DNA of 12,543 nt, taken from positions 1-12,543 of the forward strand of contig JAILZY010000096.1 of assembly GCA_023512255.1 (NCBI GenBank), read 5' to 3'. Positions 3,014-12,543 of the stretch are shown piece by piece. Source of the stretch: a bacterium. GTDB taxonomy: Bacteria > SZUA-182 > DTGQ01. The notes beneath the pieces were generated by a model. That model saw only the letters and a list, made by a program, of their open reading frames with translations, had not been told where the DNA came from and made no database searches. The position numbers were made by a program, and so were the translations under genes. Position 1 is the first letter of the stretch; each line of letters begins with the position of its first letter.

Positions 3014-5875
3014 ATGGATGCACTTAAAAAGATAGACAAATTAATCATAAATTCTCCGTATGAGGAGCCGAAAGAACATTGGTCATACGACCGCACTACT
3101 CGGACTTTCCATAAAGTAGAAGGCAGAAGACCAGCAGGATATGTTGTGGCCACTCCGGGCTCGCAGTCATTTGACGATCCTGGTATTTTTGTTGAGATTC
3201 CCCTGGTAAATGAGATCAGGAGGCGAGTTAAGATGTGGCGTGAAAATGGTTATCCTGGGATTACTGGTATTACAAAACGGCTCCTTGAACATTGGTATAA
3301 CCTTGAGGAACGACAATATCGCAGATTCTTTTTCTGTCAACTTGAAGCCATTGAGACATTGATCTGGTTAATTGAAGCACCGGAATCCGAAAAAGTAGGC
3401 ATTGAAATTCCTTCAGATGGCGGGGAATTCCAAAGGATTTGTTCAAAGATGGCTACTGGCTCAGGGAAGACGATTGTTATGGCCATGCTTATTGCCTGGC
3501 AGGTTTTAAACAAAGTTACCTATCCTAAAGATACAAGGTTCTCAAAAGATATTCTTGTTATTGTCCCTGGGCTTACGGTTAAAAATAGACTACAGGTCTT
3601 AAAACCGGATTCACCTGGCAATTACTATGACGAGTTTAACGTCATTCCTGTTGGACTAACGGAATTTTTAAGACAGGGTAAAATTATTGTTCATAACTGG
3701 CATGTGCTAAATTGGGATACTGAGGAAAAATTAAAGAGAAAAAAGTCCGTTGATAAACGTGGAGTAAAAAGCGATGAGGCGTATGTTAGGGAAGTGCTTG
3801 GGTGTATGGCGAGCAGTCATAATATAGTTGTTATAAATGACGAAGCGCACCATGCCTGACGGGTAAATGTAGCGGCTGAAGAGAAATATATCCGGCAGCG
3901 TGATTTAAAAGACAGTGCTGAGGAAGCTACAATTTGGGTTGGCGGACTTGACCGTATTCATAAGGCGCGGGGGATTTTAAGGTGTTTTGATTTTTCTGCC
4001 ACTCCATTTGCTCCTTCGGGAAAAAAAAGCGAAGGAGAAGCGCTTTTTGGCTGGATAGTAAGCGATTTCGGGTTAAATGATGCGATTGAATCAGGACTTG
4101 TGAAAACGCCACGTGTTGTTATCAGGGACGATGCCTGTATAAATGCCAAAGATTATAAATCACGGTTGTATCATATTTATATGGACCCCGAAGTTAAAGA
4201 TGATATTAATCGCAAGGCAGAATCTTCTGAACCTCTCCCCGACTTGATAAAAAACGCTTATTATCTTTTAGGGAGGGATTGGCTTGTTACAAAGGAAAAA
4301 TGGGATGAGGTAAAAAAAGAAGTGCCGCCGGTTATGATAACAATAGCAAACAGAACAGAAACAGCAGCCCGGATTAAATTTGCTTTTGACCATAAGGAGA
4401 TACTTATTCCAGAATTGTGTGATTCGGAAAGAATCCTTCAAATTGATTCTAAGGTTCTTGAGGAAGCCGAATCGCAGGTAGAGGAATTAGAAATAAAGAC
4501 CTCAGAGCCAGACGATGAAAATAATAATAAAAATGGAACAAAAAAATTAAATAAACAACAGCAGGCAGAACTTTTACGCAAAATGGTTGATACTGTTGGC
4601 CAAAAAGGACAACCTGGAGAAAAAATACAGAATGTAATATCTGTAGGTATGCTCTCTGAAGGTTGGGATGCCAAAACCGTTACCCATATTATGGGTTTAC
4701 GTGCTTTTACAAGCCAGCTTCTTTGTGAACAGGTTGTCGGACGTGGATTAAGAAGGACATCATACGAAGTTGGACCTGACGGATTATTTGAACCGGAGTA
4801 TGTTAATATTTTTGGAGTGCCATTTACTTTCCTGCCACATGAAGGTGGTGATGATAATCCTCCTCCACCACCAAAACCAAAGACGCAGATTGAACCGGTA
4901 AAAGAAAAAGAGCGGTTCGCAATATCATGGCCGAATGTTATTCGTATAGACCATGTTTACCGGTCGTCTTTAAGTATTGATTTTGATAGGATTGATCCAA
5001 TAGAACTTGACCCGTATGAGAGCATTACTTCTGCTGAAATGGCTCCAATTTTAGAAGGCAAACCTAACCGCTGTGTAGGCGAATTATCCGAGATTGAGCT
5101 TAAAGGAATAGCCGAAAGATATCGTATGCAGACAATTATTTTTGAGACAGCCAAAAGAATCTATAACAACGAAAAAGAAAAATGGCAAGGGATAAAAGAA
5201 CATCTGTTCGGACAATTGGTTTGGATAGTATCTCAATTTATAGAAAGGGATAAGATTATAATAAAGAATGACTTATTCAGAAATGAGGAACTTCACAAGG
5301 TTGTTCTTATTCTTTTGAACATGAATAAGATTATTCATTATGTTTGGCAGGCAATAAAACTTGAAAATACTACCGAAATCAATCCTATTTTTGACACGGT
5401 AAAACCAATACGGTCAACCGAAGATATGAGGACGTGGTATACAAGCAAGCCTTGTGAATATACAGATAAATCACATATTAATTTCTGCGTCTATGATAGC
5501 ACCTGGGAAGCTACTGAATCGTATATTCTTGATAAAAGTAAAGATGTTTACGCCTGGGTTAAAAATGACCACTTAGGATTTGAAATTATGTATAACTACC
5601 AAGGCGTGTTCAGAAAGTACCGGCCGGATTTCATTATAAAACTTACTAACGGCACTCAATTGATTCTGGAAACAAAAGGCAAAGACGACGACCAAAATAA
5701 AGTCAAACGTGATTTTCTTGATGAGTGGGTTCGTGCTATCAATGCACATGGTGGATTTGGCAAATGGGCATGGGCTGTTTCCAGACACCCAAGTGATTTG
5801 GAAGGAATATTGAGAAATATAAATAATGGTGAACTAAAAACGGTTATAGAAATGAATGAGTATGAAAAAGAATAA
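3014..5875 (+). pseudogene. res: Type III-like restriction enzyme Res subunit, interrupted by an in-frame TGA
   Basis: An SF2 helicase/endonuclease subunit that would translocate on DNA and cleave with Mod. One frame runs from ATG 3014 (weak AGGA 10 bases upstream) to TAA 5873-5875, broken once by TGA at 3857-3859. Before the stop are motif I, MATGSGKT (residues 146-153), and motif II, NDEAHHA (275-281). After it the frame continues with family-like sequence (WVGGLDRIHKARG, FDFSATPFAPSG), motif VI QVVGRGLRR (573-581) and a C-terminal PD-(D/E)xK nuclease with Asp872, Glu886 and Lys888. Total length is 953 positions, near EcoP15I Res (about 970). From memory, homologues have Trp right after HHA, so TGG-to-TGA is likely. 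The ORF from GTG 4100 is an internal piece without a real start. The stop context TGAC is known to be leaky, so low readthrough is conceivable. Confidence 0.88.
3857..3859 (+). other. Premature in-frame TGA stop in res
   Basis: Codon 282 of res is TGA, immediately after the DEAH box. The same frame is open for another 2,013 bases and encodes the rest of the helicase and the nuclease. TGA ends the genes at 6719 and 6901, so genome-wide recoding to Trp is unlikely. A sequencing error cannot be excluded from the sequence alone. Confidence 0.85.
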
Positions 5876-8836: not shown

Positions 8837-9595
8837 ATGCTCCGAATCGAGGATCTACAAGTTAAGATCGGCGACAGAAAAATTTTAGAACATATTGACC
8901 TTGAAATTCATCCTGGGGAAACCCATATCCTGTTTGGCCCAAATGGATCGGGTAAGACCTCGCTACTTATGACCATTATGGGCTATCCTCAGTACAGGAT
9001 TACGGGTGGGAAGATCTTTTTCAAGGGAGAAGACATTACTAACATGCCGGTGAACGAGCGAGCTAGGCTCGGTATCGGCCTCTCCTACCAGAGGCCACCA
9101 ACCATTCACGGGCTGAAGATCAGACAGATGGTTCAGATCTGCGGTCGGGGCAAAGAGGTTGATCCGCAAGAGCTGGCCAAGCAGGTGAATTTCAGCGAGT
9201 TTCTTGACCGAGAGGTCAATGCCGGCTTTTCAGGTGGTGAAATCAAGCGCTCTGAGCTTCTGCAACTTCTGGCTCAGGATCCTGACCTCTTACTATTTGA
9301 TGAGCCGGAATCAGGCGTTGACCTTGAGAACATCTCCTTAATTGGCCGCACCATCAATCACCTGCTTCAGCGGGACATGAGAGCAGAGCCTGGCAAGAGC
9401 ATGAGGGAGCTTCGCCAGGAGAGGAAGAAAATGGGACTGATCATTACCCATACGGGATTTATTCTCGACTATGTAACCGCTGACAAGGGGCAGGTTCTGT
9501 ATGGTGGTGTTCTGACCTGTGCCAGCAACCCACGGGAGATTTTCAAGTGTATCAGTGAGGTTGGATACGAGGAGTGTGTCAGATGCGCGACTTAG
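8837..9595 (+). CDS. sufC: SufC, ABC-type ATPase of Fe-S cluster assembly
   Basis: A 252-residue cytosolic ATPase that drives SufB conformational change during Fe-S cluster assembly. Visible are Walker A GPNGSGKT (34-41), the Q-loop YQRPP (84-88), signature FSGGEIKRSELLQLL (131-145), Walker B LLLFDEPESGVD (151-162) and H-loop His205. The FSGGE.KR.E and DEPESG(V/L)D forms are specific to SufC rather than transport ATPases. The C terminus, EECVRCAT, holds a Cys-x-x-Cys pair also seen, as I recall, in SufC of minimal anaerobe systems. The ATG at 8837 is the only in-frame ATG after an upstream stop. AGGGAG abuts it closely; AAGGAGA (8817-8823) is 13 bases away, so initiation may be suboptimal. 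sufB overlaps the 3' end. Confidence 0.93.
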   Translation: MLRIEDLQVKIGDRKILEHIDLEIHPGETHILFGPNGSGKTSLLMTIMGYPQYRITGGKIFFKGEDITNMPVNERARLGIGLSYQRPPTIHGLKIRQMVQICGRGKEVDPQELAKQVNFSEFLDREVNAGFSGGEIKRSELLQLLAQDPDLLLFDEPESGVDLENISLIGRTINHLLQRDMRAEPGKSMRELRQERKKMGLIITHTGFILDYVTADKGQVLYGGVLTCASNPREIFKCISEVGYEECVRCAT

Positions 9596-10806
9596 ATGAC
9601 AAGGCCTTGCAGGCTAAGGATAAACGTGCCGAGTTTGGCCAGGACATTGATCTTGATGCCTTTCAGGCCGAGCCTGCTCCTAGTCCTAGCAGTGTCGAAT
9701 ATCAGGCAGGCTCATCCACCCTGTCAGCGGCAGACAAGGAGCGGATGATTCTATCTGGGATCGAGGTGAGCGGAGTAGGCCGAGCGGGCAGCTTTCTGCA
9801 AAAAAACAGCACAGTGCTTGAGGCTTTCTCCAGGCAGGATGGGCTTGAGGTGATGCCGATCAGGGAGGCACTGGAGCGCCATCCCTGGGTGCGGGATTAC
9901 TATTGGAAACTGGCCTCGGTCGATGCTGACAAGTATACGGCCCAGGCTAGGCTCAAGCTGCACAACGGCTACATTATCAGGGCCTTGCCCGGCAGCAAGA
10001 TCACCTATCCGGTCCAGGCCTGCATGTATTTGGATCAGGAAGGTGCAAGTCAGCACGTTCATAACCTGATTATCGCCGAGGAGGGCTCAGAGCTCCATAT
10101 TATTGCTGGCTGTGCTACTGCCGCTCATGTACGCCGGGCTCTCCACATTGGCATTTCTGAGTTTTACGTCAAAAAGAGGGCCAAGCTGAGCTTCACCATG
10201 ATCCACACTTGGGCCGAAGAGATCGTGGTGCGGCCAAGGTCGGTGGGGATAGTTGAAGAAGAGGGAATCTTTTTGAATAACTATATCTGCCTGATGCCGG
10301 TCAAATCTATCCAGACCTACCCAACCACTTATCTGGCCGGCAAAGGTGCTGTGGCCCGCTTCTCTAACCTGCTGGTAGGAAGCCCTGGCTCGGAAATGGA
10401 TGTCGGCGGCCGTATCTTCCTCCAGGAAGCCAACACTAGGGCTGAGATCATCTCCCGGGCGATTACCAATGGTGGAACCATTATTTCCCGTGGAGCGCTG
10501 ATCGGTGAGGTAGCCGGGGTAAAAGCACACCTTGAGTGCCGGGGACTTATCCTGAAGGGTGGAACCATGCACGCTATCCCTGAACTTGAGGGAAGGGCCG
10601 ATGGGGTAGAGATGTCCCACGAGGCAGCAGTGGGCAAAATCGCCCAGGAAGAGATTCTCTACCTTATGTCTCGCGGCCTGAGCGAAGATGAGGCCACATC
10701 CACGATTGTTCGAGGTTTCCTGAACGTCGATATCCCTGATCTGCCGCCTCAACTGAAGGCGGAAATCGACCGGGCAGTAGGGCAAAGTGACCAGGAGATG
10801 ATGTAA
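9583..10806 (+). CDS. sufB: SufB, Fe-S cluster scaffold protein (minimal SufCB system)
   Basis: A 407-residue scaffold that would assemble Fe-S clusters with SufC. The C-terminal half is the SufB/SufD beta-helix core, with blocks NLIIAEEGSELHIIAGC, MIHTWAEEI and ISRGALIGEVAG. The end, MSHEAAVGKIAQEEILYLMSRGLSEDEA...IVRGFLN, is the conserved family tail. Cys319 (HLECRG) and His346-Glu347 (SHEAA) align by eye with the E. coli SufB Cys405/Glu434 region. It is shorter than E. coli SufB (about 495 residues) because the N-terminal part is reduced. I prefer ATG 9583, with GGAG 8 bases upstream, over the in-frame GTG at 9574. It overlaps sufC by 13 bases, indicating coupling. No sufS, sufU, sufD or sufA is nearby, so this fits the minimal SUF-like arrangement. 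Confidence 0.92.
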   Translation: MRDLDDKALQAKDKRAEFGQDIDLDAFQAEPAPSPSSVEYQAGSSTLSAADKERMILSGIEVSGVGRAGSFLQKNSTVLEAFSRQDGLEVMPIREALERHPWVRDYYWKLASVDADKYTAQARLKLHNGYIIRALPGSKITYPVQACMYLDQEGASQHVHNLIIAEEGSELHIIAGCATAAHVRRALHIGISEFYVKKRAKLSFTMIHTWAEEIVVRPRSVGIVEEEGIFLNNYICLMPVKSIQTYPTTYLAGKGAVARFSNLLVGSPGSEMDVGGRIFLQEANTRAEIISRAITNGGTIISRGALIGEVAGVKAHLECRGLILKGGTMHAIPELEGRADGVEMSHEAAVGKIAQEEILYLMSRGLSEDEATSTIVRGFLNVDIPDLPPQLKAEIDRAVGQSDQEMM

Positions 10807-10859: not shown

Positions 10860-10883
10860 CGCCACACCCCTGAAGCCGAAAGG

Positions 10884-11246
10884 GAGATCCACGTGGAGCA
10901 GAGGAATTTTTTGAGCATAGCCATGCCCCCACAAAAACGGCTAAGGAACTGACACCTTAGGCCAGAGAGTTTTGCGCGGTCGCAATCCAAACCCTTGCCA
11001 AACGAGAGAGCTCCCTTTGTGATAGAGGAATTTTAGGCTTCATCTCTATCTTGCCAGCCAGGGCTCTATTTTGCCAAAGCCAGGGCCGCAGAGCTTTCCT
11101 TGTGCTAGAGGAATTTTATGGTTCAGCCAGTCAATCCCTCATTAATCTCACAAGCTTTCCCTGTGCTATAGGACTAGAGGAATTTTAGCATGAGGAGATT
11201 GACTAATTTGCTCATAAAGAACTCCCCGTGGGGCAGATAAATTTTA
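10884..11246. repeat. Degenerate 28-bp direct-repeat array, about 62-bp period, CRISPR-like layout
   Basis: Copies lie at 10884-10911, 11008-11035, 11091-11118, 11152-11187 and 11219-11246. Four are exactly 28 bases; the one at 11152 has an 8-base insertion (11169-11176). All share a gagctcccc-like start and most share tagaggaatttta at the end. A weaker copy fits at 10946-10973. Intervals between copies are 34, 34, 55, 33 and 31 bases; the 55 contains a roughly 21-base internal duplication, so it was probably 34. The intervening sequences are not obviously alike. The 11219 copy has CCCC-GT-GGGG and the first has CCACGTGG, giving short palindromes. This fits a decayed CRISPR array or an old tandem repeat; repeats diverge far more than in a live array and no cas gene is in view. 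Confidence 0.6.
11044..11085. repeat. Tandem duplication inside one interval of the 28-bp array
   Basis: ctctatcttgccagccaggg (11044-11063) is followed by ctctattttgccaaagccaggg (11064-11085), a near copy with a 2-base insertion. This explains why this interval is 55 bases instead of about 34. Confidence 0.75.
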
Positions 11247-11286: not shown

Positions 11287-11400
11287 TTTTGAGCCATCAT
11301 CCATCAAGATTTAATTTGAGCCATCCATCTTTAATTTGAGCCATCCATCAAGGACTTAATTTCAAGAATTTGATTTTTCAAAGAGTTAATTTCAAAGATT
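11287..11400. repeat. 20-bp tandem repeats and related ttaatttcaa repeats
   Basis: ttaatttgagccatccatct (11311-11330) and a copy differing in the last base (11331-11350) abut, preceded by a partial ttgagccatc copy from 11288. They are followed by ttaatttcaagaattt and ttaatttcaaagattt (about 11355-11400). No gene is supported between 10807 and 11531. Confidence 0.8.
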
Positions 11401-11517
11401 TACTTTTTGCGTAATTAAAGTCAGTCTTAATCGTCAGCTTAGGTTAAGGGTTTCTCTCCTTAGATAGCAAATTGGGTGATATATAACAACATCATACAAC
11501 AAAACATCTTTCGTGTC

Positions 11518-11531: not shown

Positions 11532-12543
11532 ATGTTTTTCAAAAAAGTGAGTTTTCTATATTTACTCATTATCAATGCCATATTCGGTTTGCTGCTCCTC
11601 TCCTCAGCAGCCTATGCGCAGAGAATTTTGCTAAGCTCACCATACTTGGCTGGGCGCCTGGTGCCAGAAGCCTACGCGGCGGGGACTTTGTCCTTGTTTC
11701 AAGCGATGTCTTATTATACAACAGGATTTTCTAATAGATTTGGTCCATATCTTGGAGTTACAGCGCCGTCCTATCCTTATCAAAACCCACTGGCTATGCC
11801 CTTATCCACTTATTACGTCTCTCCCCAATCCTTATCTTCAGCAGTCTATCCAGCCTATCAGGGCTATCCATCGGCCTATCAGGGGTATCCAACCTCATCA
11901 TATCAGGGCTATCCATCGGATTATTTGAGATATTCAGCCTCTTATCAGAACTACCCAACACCCTACTGGGGCTATACATCGGCCTATCCAGGCTACTACC
12001 AGGGGTATACAACGGCTTATCAAGCCTCCCTACCTTACCAGGGGGGTGCTTACGCGGCCTCTGGTGGTTATATAGTCCCCAATGTTTATGCACCTTCTGG
12101 CTACACCTTTGGCTCTAGTGGCCACATTCCCTTTGTCTTTAGTCAAAATCCACCTCTATTGCCGGTTGTACAGCTCGCCGATGTAATGCTTGATCAGGAC
12201 GACAATAAGAAACTGGTGAAAATCGACCGAGGAAAAACCTTGAGCATTATGCTGCCTTCAAAATATCTAGCCGACTATCGGTGGGAGCTTGATATTGTTT
12301 CTCTAAATACCGATGTGGCCAGGAAAAAAGGCTGGCAGCTTTTACCACCTGTCATTCCTACGTCCAAGGCTATTTGGTACGAGCAGTGGATCTTTGAGAC
12401 TTTGAATGCAGGCACCACCACAATCAGTCTCAAATATCGACGCTACTGGGAGACGATATTTGCATCTACCAGATGTTCCCCATATTTAAAATTAGGAGAA
12501 GTAGATAAGCTGCAGGGGAAGGGTATTGAGGTAAAAGACAATA
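11532..12543 (+). CDS. Secreted Tyr-rich repeat protein with chagasin-like (I42 inhibitor) domain, 3' end outside window
   Basis: The frame is open for 337 codons to the window edge, so the gene is partial. Residues 1-29 are a signal peptide: FFKK basic start, hydrophobic core LLIINAIFGLLLLSS, and a likely cleavage after AYA. Residues about 79-180 are rich in Tyr, Gly, Pro and Ser with degenerate YQGYPS repeats (109-131) and YxGY variants after them. Residues about 214-308 resemble the chagasin / peptidase inhibitor I42 fold: a KIDRGKTLSIMLPS strand pair, YRWEL where the family has TTGYxWxL, IWYEQWIFETLNAGTTTISL, then KYRRYWE where the family has YxRPWE. The first loop (SKYLADYRW) lacks the usual NPTTG, so cysteine-protease inhibition is uncertain. 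It would act outside the cytoplasm, perhaps at the cell surface. The domain assignment is from motif memory. Confidence 0.75.
   Translation, partial: MFFKKVSFLYLLIINAIFGLLLLSSAAYAQRILLSSPYLAGRLVPEAYAAGTLSLFQAMSYYTTGFSNRFGPYLGVTAPSYPYQNPLAMPLSTYYVSPQSLSSAVYPAYQGYPSAYQGYPTSSYQGYPSDYLRYSASYQNYPTPYWGYTSAYPGYYQGYTTAYQASLPYQGGAYAASGGYIVPNVYAPSGYTFGSSGHIPFVFSQNPPLLPVVQLADVMLDQDDNKKLVKIDRGKTLSIMLPSKYLADYRWELDIVSLNTDVARKKGWQLLPPVIPTSKAIWYEQWIFETLNAGTTTISLKYRRYWETIFASTRCSPYLKLGEVDKLQGKGIEVKDN
11845..12010 (+). repeat. Coding tandem repeats encoding YQGYPS-type units
   Basis: The units tatcagggctatccatcg, tatcaggggtatccaacc and close variants recur from 11854 to about 11918, and weaker ones continue to about 12008. 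The nucleotide identity between units suggests recent expansion, unlike a merely biased composition. Confidence 0.75.

Follow-up and report, generated by a model that had tools for sequence, protein, structure and literature searches.

CRISPR arrays of type I-E carry near-identical, palindromic repeats of about 29 bases that are separated by intervals of about 32 bases. An intact example was located through its Cas1e in a distant genome (L164); its 29-base repeat is GTAGTCCCCACGCACGTGGGGATGGACCG and its copies are spaced at 60-63 bases. Relic CRISPR arrays are a kind of locus that is already known. Where a genome carries self-targeting spacers, its cas genes may be lost, the adjacent repeats mutated, or the PAM absent, all of which have been described (PMC6990116). 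Ectopic repeats, such as those of CreTA and scaRNA, are typically degenerate elsewhere (PMC9458426).

The window, that is, the whole 12,543-nucleotide stretch of DNA analysed here, is one entire contig (C104) of a 3.83-Mb assembly with 172 contigs and an estimated completeness of 96.6%. It contains a series of repeats, which we regard as probably a decayed, orphan CRISPR array laid out as in type I-E, with six repeats and five spacers. Like the intact array of L164, it has a 29-base unit, a spacing of about 61 bases, unrelated intervals of about 32 bases, and a CTCCCC-like 5' part of the repeat. Unlike in L164, the repeats differ among themselves, most copies no longer have the long hairpin, and the contig has no cas genes. 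Self-targeting loci with missing cas genes (PMC6990116) share with it a spacer from the own chromosome, a partly missing cas set, and mutated adjacent repeats, but here the entire array has decayed and the match is 30/32. Ectopic degenerate repeats (PMC9458426) resemble it in that the repeats are diverged and lie outside any active array, and in having an interval that matches the own genome; however, there are six repeats here, not one or two, and the target is no promoter.

Repeats and their spacing

Six copies of a 28-29-base motif lie within 10883-11246, and all six starts listed in a preliminary description of this DNA were found again (10884, 10946, 11008, 11091, 11152, and 11219). The unit becomes 29 bases long once the motif is extended one base leftward. 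For the best 28-base word, five non-overlapping copies matched at 18/28 or better. Not one of 200 dinucleotide-shuffled sequences had 3 or more copies at this threshold, and chance is therefore excluded as the source of the copy number. The preliminary description had counted five clear copies and one weak one; the number six stands, with a different grading, as three copies (3, 4, and 5) are clear, two (1 and 6) are moderate, and copy 2 is weak. Under the repeat model, copy 2 scores 3.5 bits and the other five 15.5-22.9 bits. The features of the array are as follows.

10883..10911, + strand: repeat copy 1, diverged, GGAGATCCACGTGGAGCAGAGGAATTTTT, 15.5 bits
10912..10944, + strand: spacer-like interval 1, about 33 bases; 20-mer without viral match
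10945..10973, + strand: repeat copy 2, weak, placed mainly from the 62-base spacing, 3.5 bits
10974..11006, + strand: spacer-like interval 2, about 33 bases
11007..11035, + strand: repeat copy 3, AGAGCTCCCTTTGTGATAGAGGAATTTTA, 20.4 bits
11036..11089, + strand: spacer-like interval 3, 32 bases after subtraction of a 22-base duplication; 30/32 to contig C32 of the same genome
11065..11086, + strand: imperfect tandem duplication of 22 bases within interval 3
11090..11118, + strand: repeat copy 4, AGAGCTTTCCTTGTGCTAGAGGAATTTTA, 22.9 bits; like the repeat on contig C118 (shuffle p 0.002)
11119..11150, + strand: spacer-like interval 4, 32 bases
11151..11187, + strand: repeat copy 5, with an 8-base tandem duplication (CTATAGGA/CTAGAGGA); like the C118 repeat (0/2000 shuffles)
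11188..11217, + strand: spacer-like interval 5, 30 bases
11218..11246, + strand: repeat copy 6, diverged, with CCCC-GT-GGGG, AGAACTCCCCGTGGGGCAGATAAATTTTA, 15.7 bits
Array repeat, form for an intact version: AGAGCTYYCCYTGTGCTAGAGGAATTTTA

The raw distances between starts are 62, 62, 83, 61, and 67 bases. Two short tandem duplications disturb them. One lies in interval 3; it had been reported as 21 bases long and measures 22 bases by the present count, and Tandem Repeats Finder calls it as a 20-base unit at 11044-11086. The other, reported as an 8-base insertion, is an 8-base tandem duplication in copy 5. Without both, the distances are 62, 62, 61, 61, and 59, which bears out the period near 62 that had been proposed and corresponds to the 29 + 32 layout of a type I-E array.

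The repeats themselves are far from uniform. Copies 3 and 4 agree at 25 of 29 positions, the remaining copies at roughly 60-73% in ungapped comparison, and a palindrome (CCCC-GT-GGGG or TCCA-CGTGGA) is left only in copies 6 and 1. Since the repeats are neither near-identical nor, in most copies, palindromic, an active array is excluded and the claim is limited to a relic.

A match to the host chromosome in interval 3

When the array was searched against the own genome, a single further place appeared at E < 0.001. This place, at C32:23567-23596 (E 1.7e-5), is matched by interval 3. With the 22-base duplication left out, the sequence of interval 3 is GGCTTCATCTCTATCTTGCCAGCCAGGGCCGC; these 32 bases are identical to C32 (L002:1502-1533) at 30 of 32 positions, for which the chance expectation is about 4e-7 in a uniform model. 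The duplication was discounted post hoc, after the match had been seen, and the 32-base length hinges on this step; the uncorrected BLAST E of 1.7e-5 is independent of it. Similarity begins directly after repeat 3 and stops directly before repeat 4, apart from the last A of repeat 3, which also matches C32 coincidentally. A type I-E spacer should match its source over precisely the stretch from one repeat to the next, as seen here; neither a copied fragment nor a tandem repeat predicts this. There is some room for a copied fragment, as the genome is rich in short duplications. Interval 3 can thus be paired with a protospacer-like site, and the target is self, not a virus.

The site on C32 lies within a long open frame that reads as a Wzz/BY-kinase-like exopolysaccharide gene, judging from sequence features and an export-protein-like neighbour. 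Beside the match stands ACA or CAC, unlike the flanking motif of E. coli, AAG; the motif of the host system may differ. Interference with this target by the array would be improbable, given a decayed array and a match of 30/32.

The other intervals yielded no source. Exact 20-mers of the five intervals had zero matches among viral contigs, and blastn of the array against plasmid and phage collections gave no convincing match. With the host chromosome as the only confident target, the earlier suggestion of a record of past invaders finds no support. The other four spacers may still be of foreign origin, since these searches were limited to exact 20-mers and named collections. Further array matches on C91, C100, C99, and C122 (E 0.016 to 0.7) were set aside as short and indifferent to the interval edges.

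The preliminary description had also offered a 62-bp minisatellite as an alternative to a CRISPR-like array. In that case the whole 62-base unit would have been tandemly duplicated and would then have decayed, with only about 28 bases per unit still recognisable. The genome is indeed full of short tandem duplications, and both indels of the array are of this kind. A minisatellite should be homologous across copies over its whole unit, intervals included, and this was not found. When all intervals were compared with one another, no direct homology was detected, in agreement with the dissimilarity noted before, whereas the 28-base motif stays at 18/28 or better. Decay that acts uniformly would not leave just one half recognisable. 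Moreover, the match of interval 3 to an unrelated chromosomal gene runs exactly to the repeat edges. Because the intervals are unrelated, the minisatellite is disfavoured and we consider it unlikely. The best pair of intervals, 4 (11119-11150) and 5 (11188-11217), shows an inverted 15-base match (14/15, E about 0.01) that is possibly due to chance.

A dispersed intergenic repeat was a further candidate, and the preliminary description had named single copies scattered through many intergenic regions as evidence against an array. Neither such copies nor mutually homologous intervals, the other refutation that it named, were found. Across the whole genome, the 13-base core with one mismatch allowed had zero exact copies outside the array and was no commoner than a reversed control, the 28-base consensus with three mismatches occurred in the array only, and a sequence model built from this array and a second one on contig C118 recovered the copies of the window and of C118, with nothing else at E below 1.

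Type I-E genes and a second degenerate array

The gene cas1 is present on three contigs (C118, C11, and C130). C118 encodes, consecutively, Cas8e, Cas11e, Cas7e, Cas5e, Cas6e, and Cas1e, a partial type I-E operon; its Cas1e is 54% identical to that of L164. Hence the earlier statement that there are no cas genes is correct for contig C104 and does not extend to the genome. Beyond Cas1e, C118 has no open frame above 66 codons and no Cas2e match, and no Cas3 lies upstream of Cas8e. The Cas2e family PF09707 was not found in the whole genome by a family search that was positive in only 2 of 14 genomes as a control. A profile search of the genome for the Cas3 core gave one match, in a frame of 1239 aa on C80, and it stayed below the cut-off. 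Cas3 and Cas2e are probably truly gone rather than lost in assembly gaps. As neither was found, the I-E system looks dead.

Next to Cas1e on C118 lies the second degenerate array (L036:139-337), with four copies of the repeat CTGCTCTCCATGCGCTGTAGGGTTAA at spacings of about 60, 62, and 48. It resembles the array of the window in the spacing of about 60 bases between its first copies and in its repeat, which aligns to copy 4 at 15/19 (shuffle p 0.002; 0.3% of genomic 29-mers do as well) and to copy 5 at 18/23 (shuffle p < 0.0005, 0/2000; equalled by 0.04% of genomic 29-mers). For copies 1, 2, 3, and 6 individually, the likeness to the C118 repeat is not significant. The two arrays differ in the 3' end of the repeat, in copy number, and in their spacers, which are unrelated. 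The repeat ends in AGAGGAATTTTA in the window, in TGTAGGGTTAACC on C118, and in GGGGATGGACCG in the intact I-E array of L164; since the end in the window is unlike the other two, the array may descend from a different repeat variant or a different system. The genome also carries type III-associated and Cas4/Cas1 loci.

From the first C118 spacer, one 20-mer occurs in 5 viral contigs, all with one sequence, and the match ends after about 21 bases, so it was set aside as possibly due to chance; a second 20-mer from C118 had no match in viral contigs. A lone, weak and partial C118-like repeat with flank is present on C26 (L145:1500-1540; 80% over about 40 bases), with E 0.035, or 1.84 under the two-array model. 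The locus on C11 (L034) is a second CRISPR locus fragment, type III associated, with genes for Cas1 and for Csx3-like, Csx1-like, and Csm5-like proteins; its cas1 contains a CCTGAT run of 13 copies. The third cas1 locus, on C130 (L035:11239-13276), consists of adjoining Cas4-like and Cas1 genes near the contig end. No arrays were seen next to cas1 of C11 and C130 in the stretches examined.

These genes bear on the possibility that ectopic degenerate repeats are kept on purpose, with guide RNAs that load residual Cascade and, like those of CreTA or scaRNA, keep a host gene repressed. The Cascade-type genes are still open, Cas3 was not found, one spacer matches an own gene, and degeneracy is typical of ectopic repeats elsewhere (PMC9458426). 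Against this, the matching spacer contains a 22-base insertion and a mismatch at position 8, and the C32 target lies in a coding region, not in a promoter. The six repeats have also diverged differently, and duplications have entered one repeat and one spacer, as neutral decay would lead one to expect. Retained guide RNAs are, in our judgement, very unlikely, and it is equally hard to credit that a nuclease-less I-E remnant uses diverged repeats as guide RNAs to keep the expression of a host gene low, for instance that of the exopolysaccharide gene on C32. If this were true, the remnant would be a natural case of CRISPR repression through binding alone.

Probable origin and decay of the array

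A decayed type I-E array accounts for the locus as follows. The array was probably built by type I-E machinery, of which the C118 genes would be the remnant; that I-E Cas proteins were the builder is something we infer. One spacer would have been taken from the lineage's own chromosome, from the exopolysaccharide chain-length/tyrosine-kinase gene. The system would then have lost acquisition and cleavage, and decay of the array followed. As no Cas3 and no Cas2e were found, I-E interference and acquisition are not expected, and repeats and spacers would therefore have drifted, by substitution as well as by short tandem duplication. The order of loss within the system is inferred in the same way, and self-targeting may have contributed to inactivation. 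The self-matching spacer may have driven the loss of the system or may simply have been tolerated afterwards.

The fossil type I-E-like array that the preliminary description proposed is supported in its 29/32 geometry, in an interval with a bounded 30/32 match, and in the related array beside the type I-E cas genes of C118. Finders that require near-identical repeats may miss arrays so worn. The anatomy of such an array is still readable, and the bounded self-match provides independent evidence for a spacer. One genome offers a case of CRISPR after the death of the system: two arrays in decay and one self spacer are accompanied by a remnant of Cascade, and neither Cas3 nor Cas2e was found. 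The case bears on the question of whether self-targeting comes before or after the loss of a system.

Genomic setting

The array is intergenic, with sufB (9574-10806) on one side and a gene at 11532 on the other. The latter gene lies on the + strand, and its secreted product combines a chagasin (I42) domain with tyrosine-rich repeats. Protein-binding or regulatory sites, arrayed about six helical turns apart in the promoter region of this gene, would fit the regular spacing of about 61-62 bases and the intergenic position upstream of a + strand gene. However, one close relative of the same genus (G001) keeps the gene order, namely sufC-sufB and the repeat-rich downstream gene, and the repeat model finds nothing in its intergenic region, which shows only short local similarity. 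Binding sites would also leave the bounded 32-base match to another gene unexplained, and this reading seems to us quite unlikely. An Rfam search of the window gave zero matches.

Short tandem duplications (10-30 bases, mostly two copies) are abundant genome-wide, in both intergenic and coding DNA (the window, L034, L035, and L036). Two more follow the array at 11301-11408, with units of 20 and 30 bases. Elsewhere in the window, a type III restriction (res) gene at 3014-5875 is broken by a single in-frame stop (3857-3859), and the frame of the methyltransferase gene upstream of it is open.
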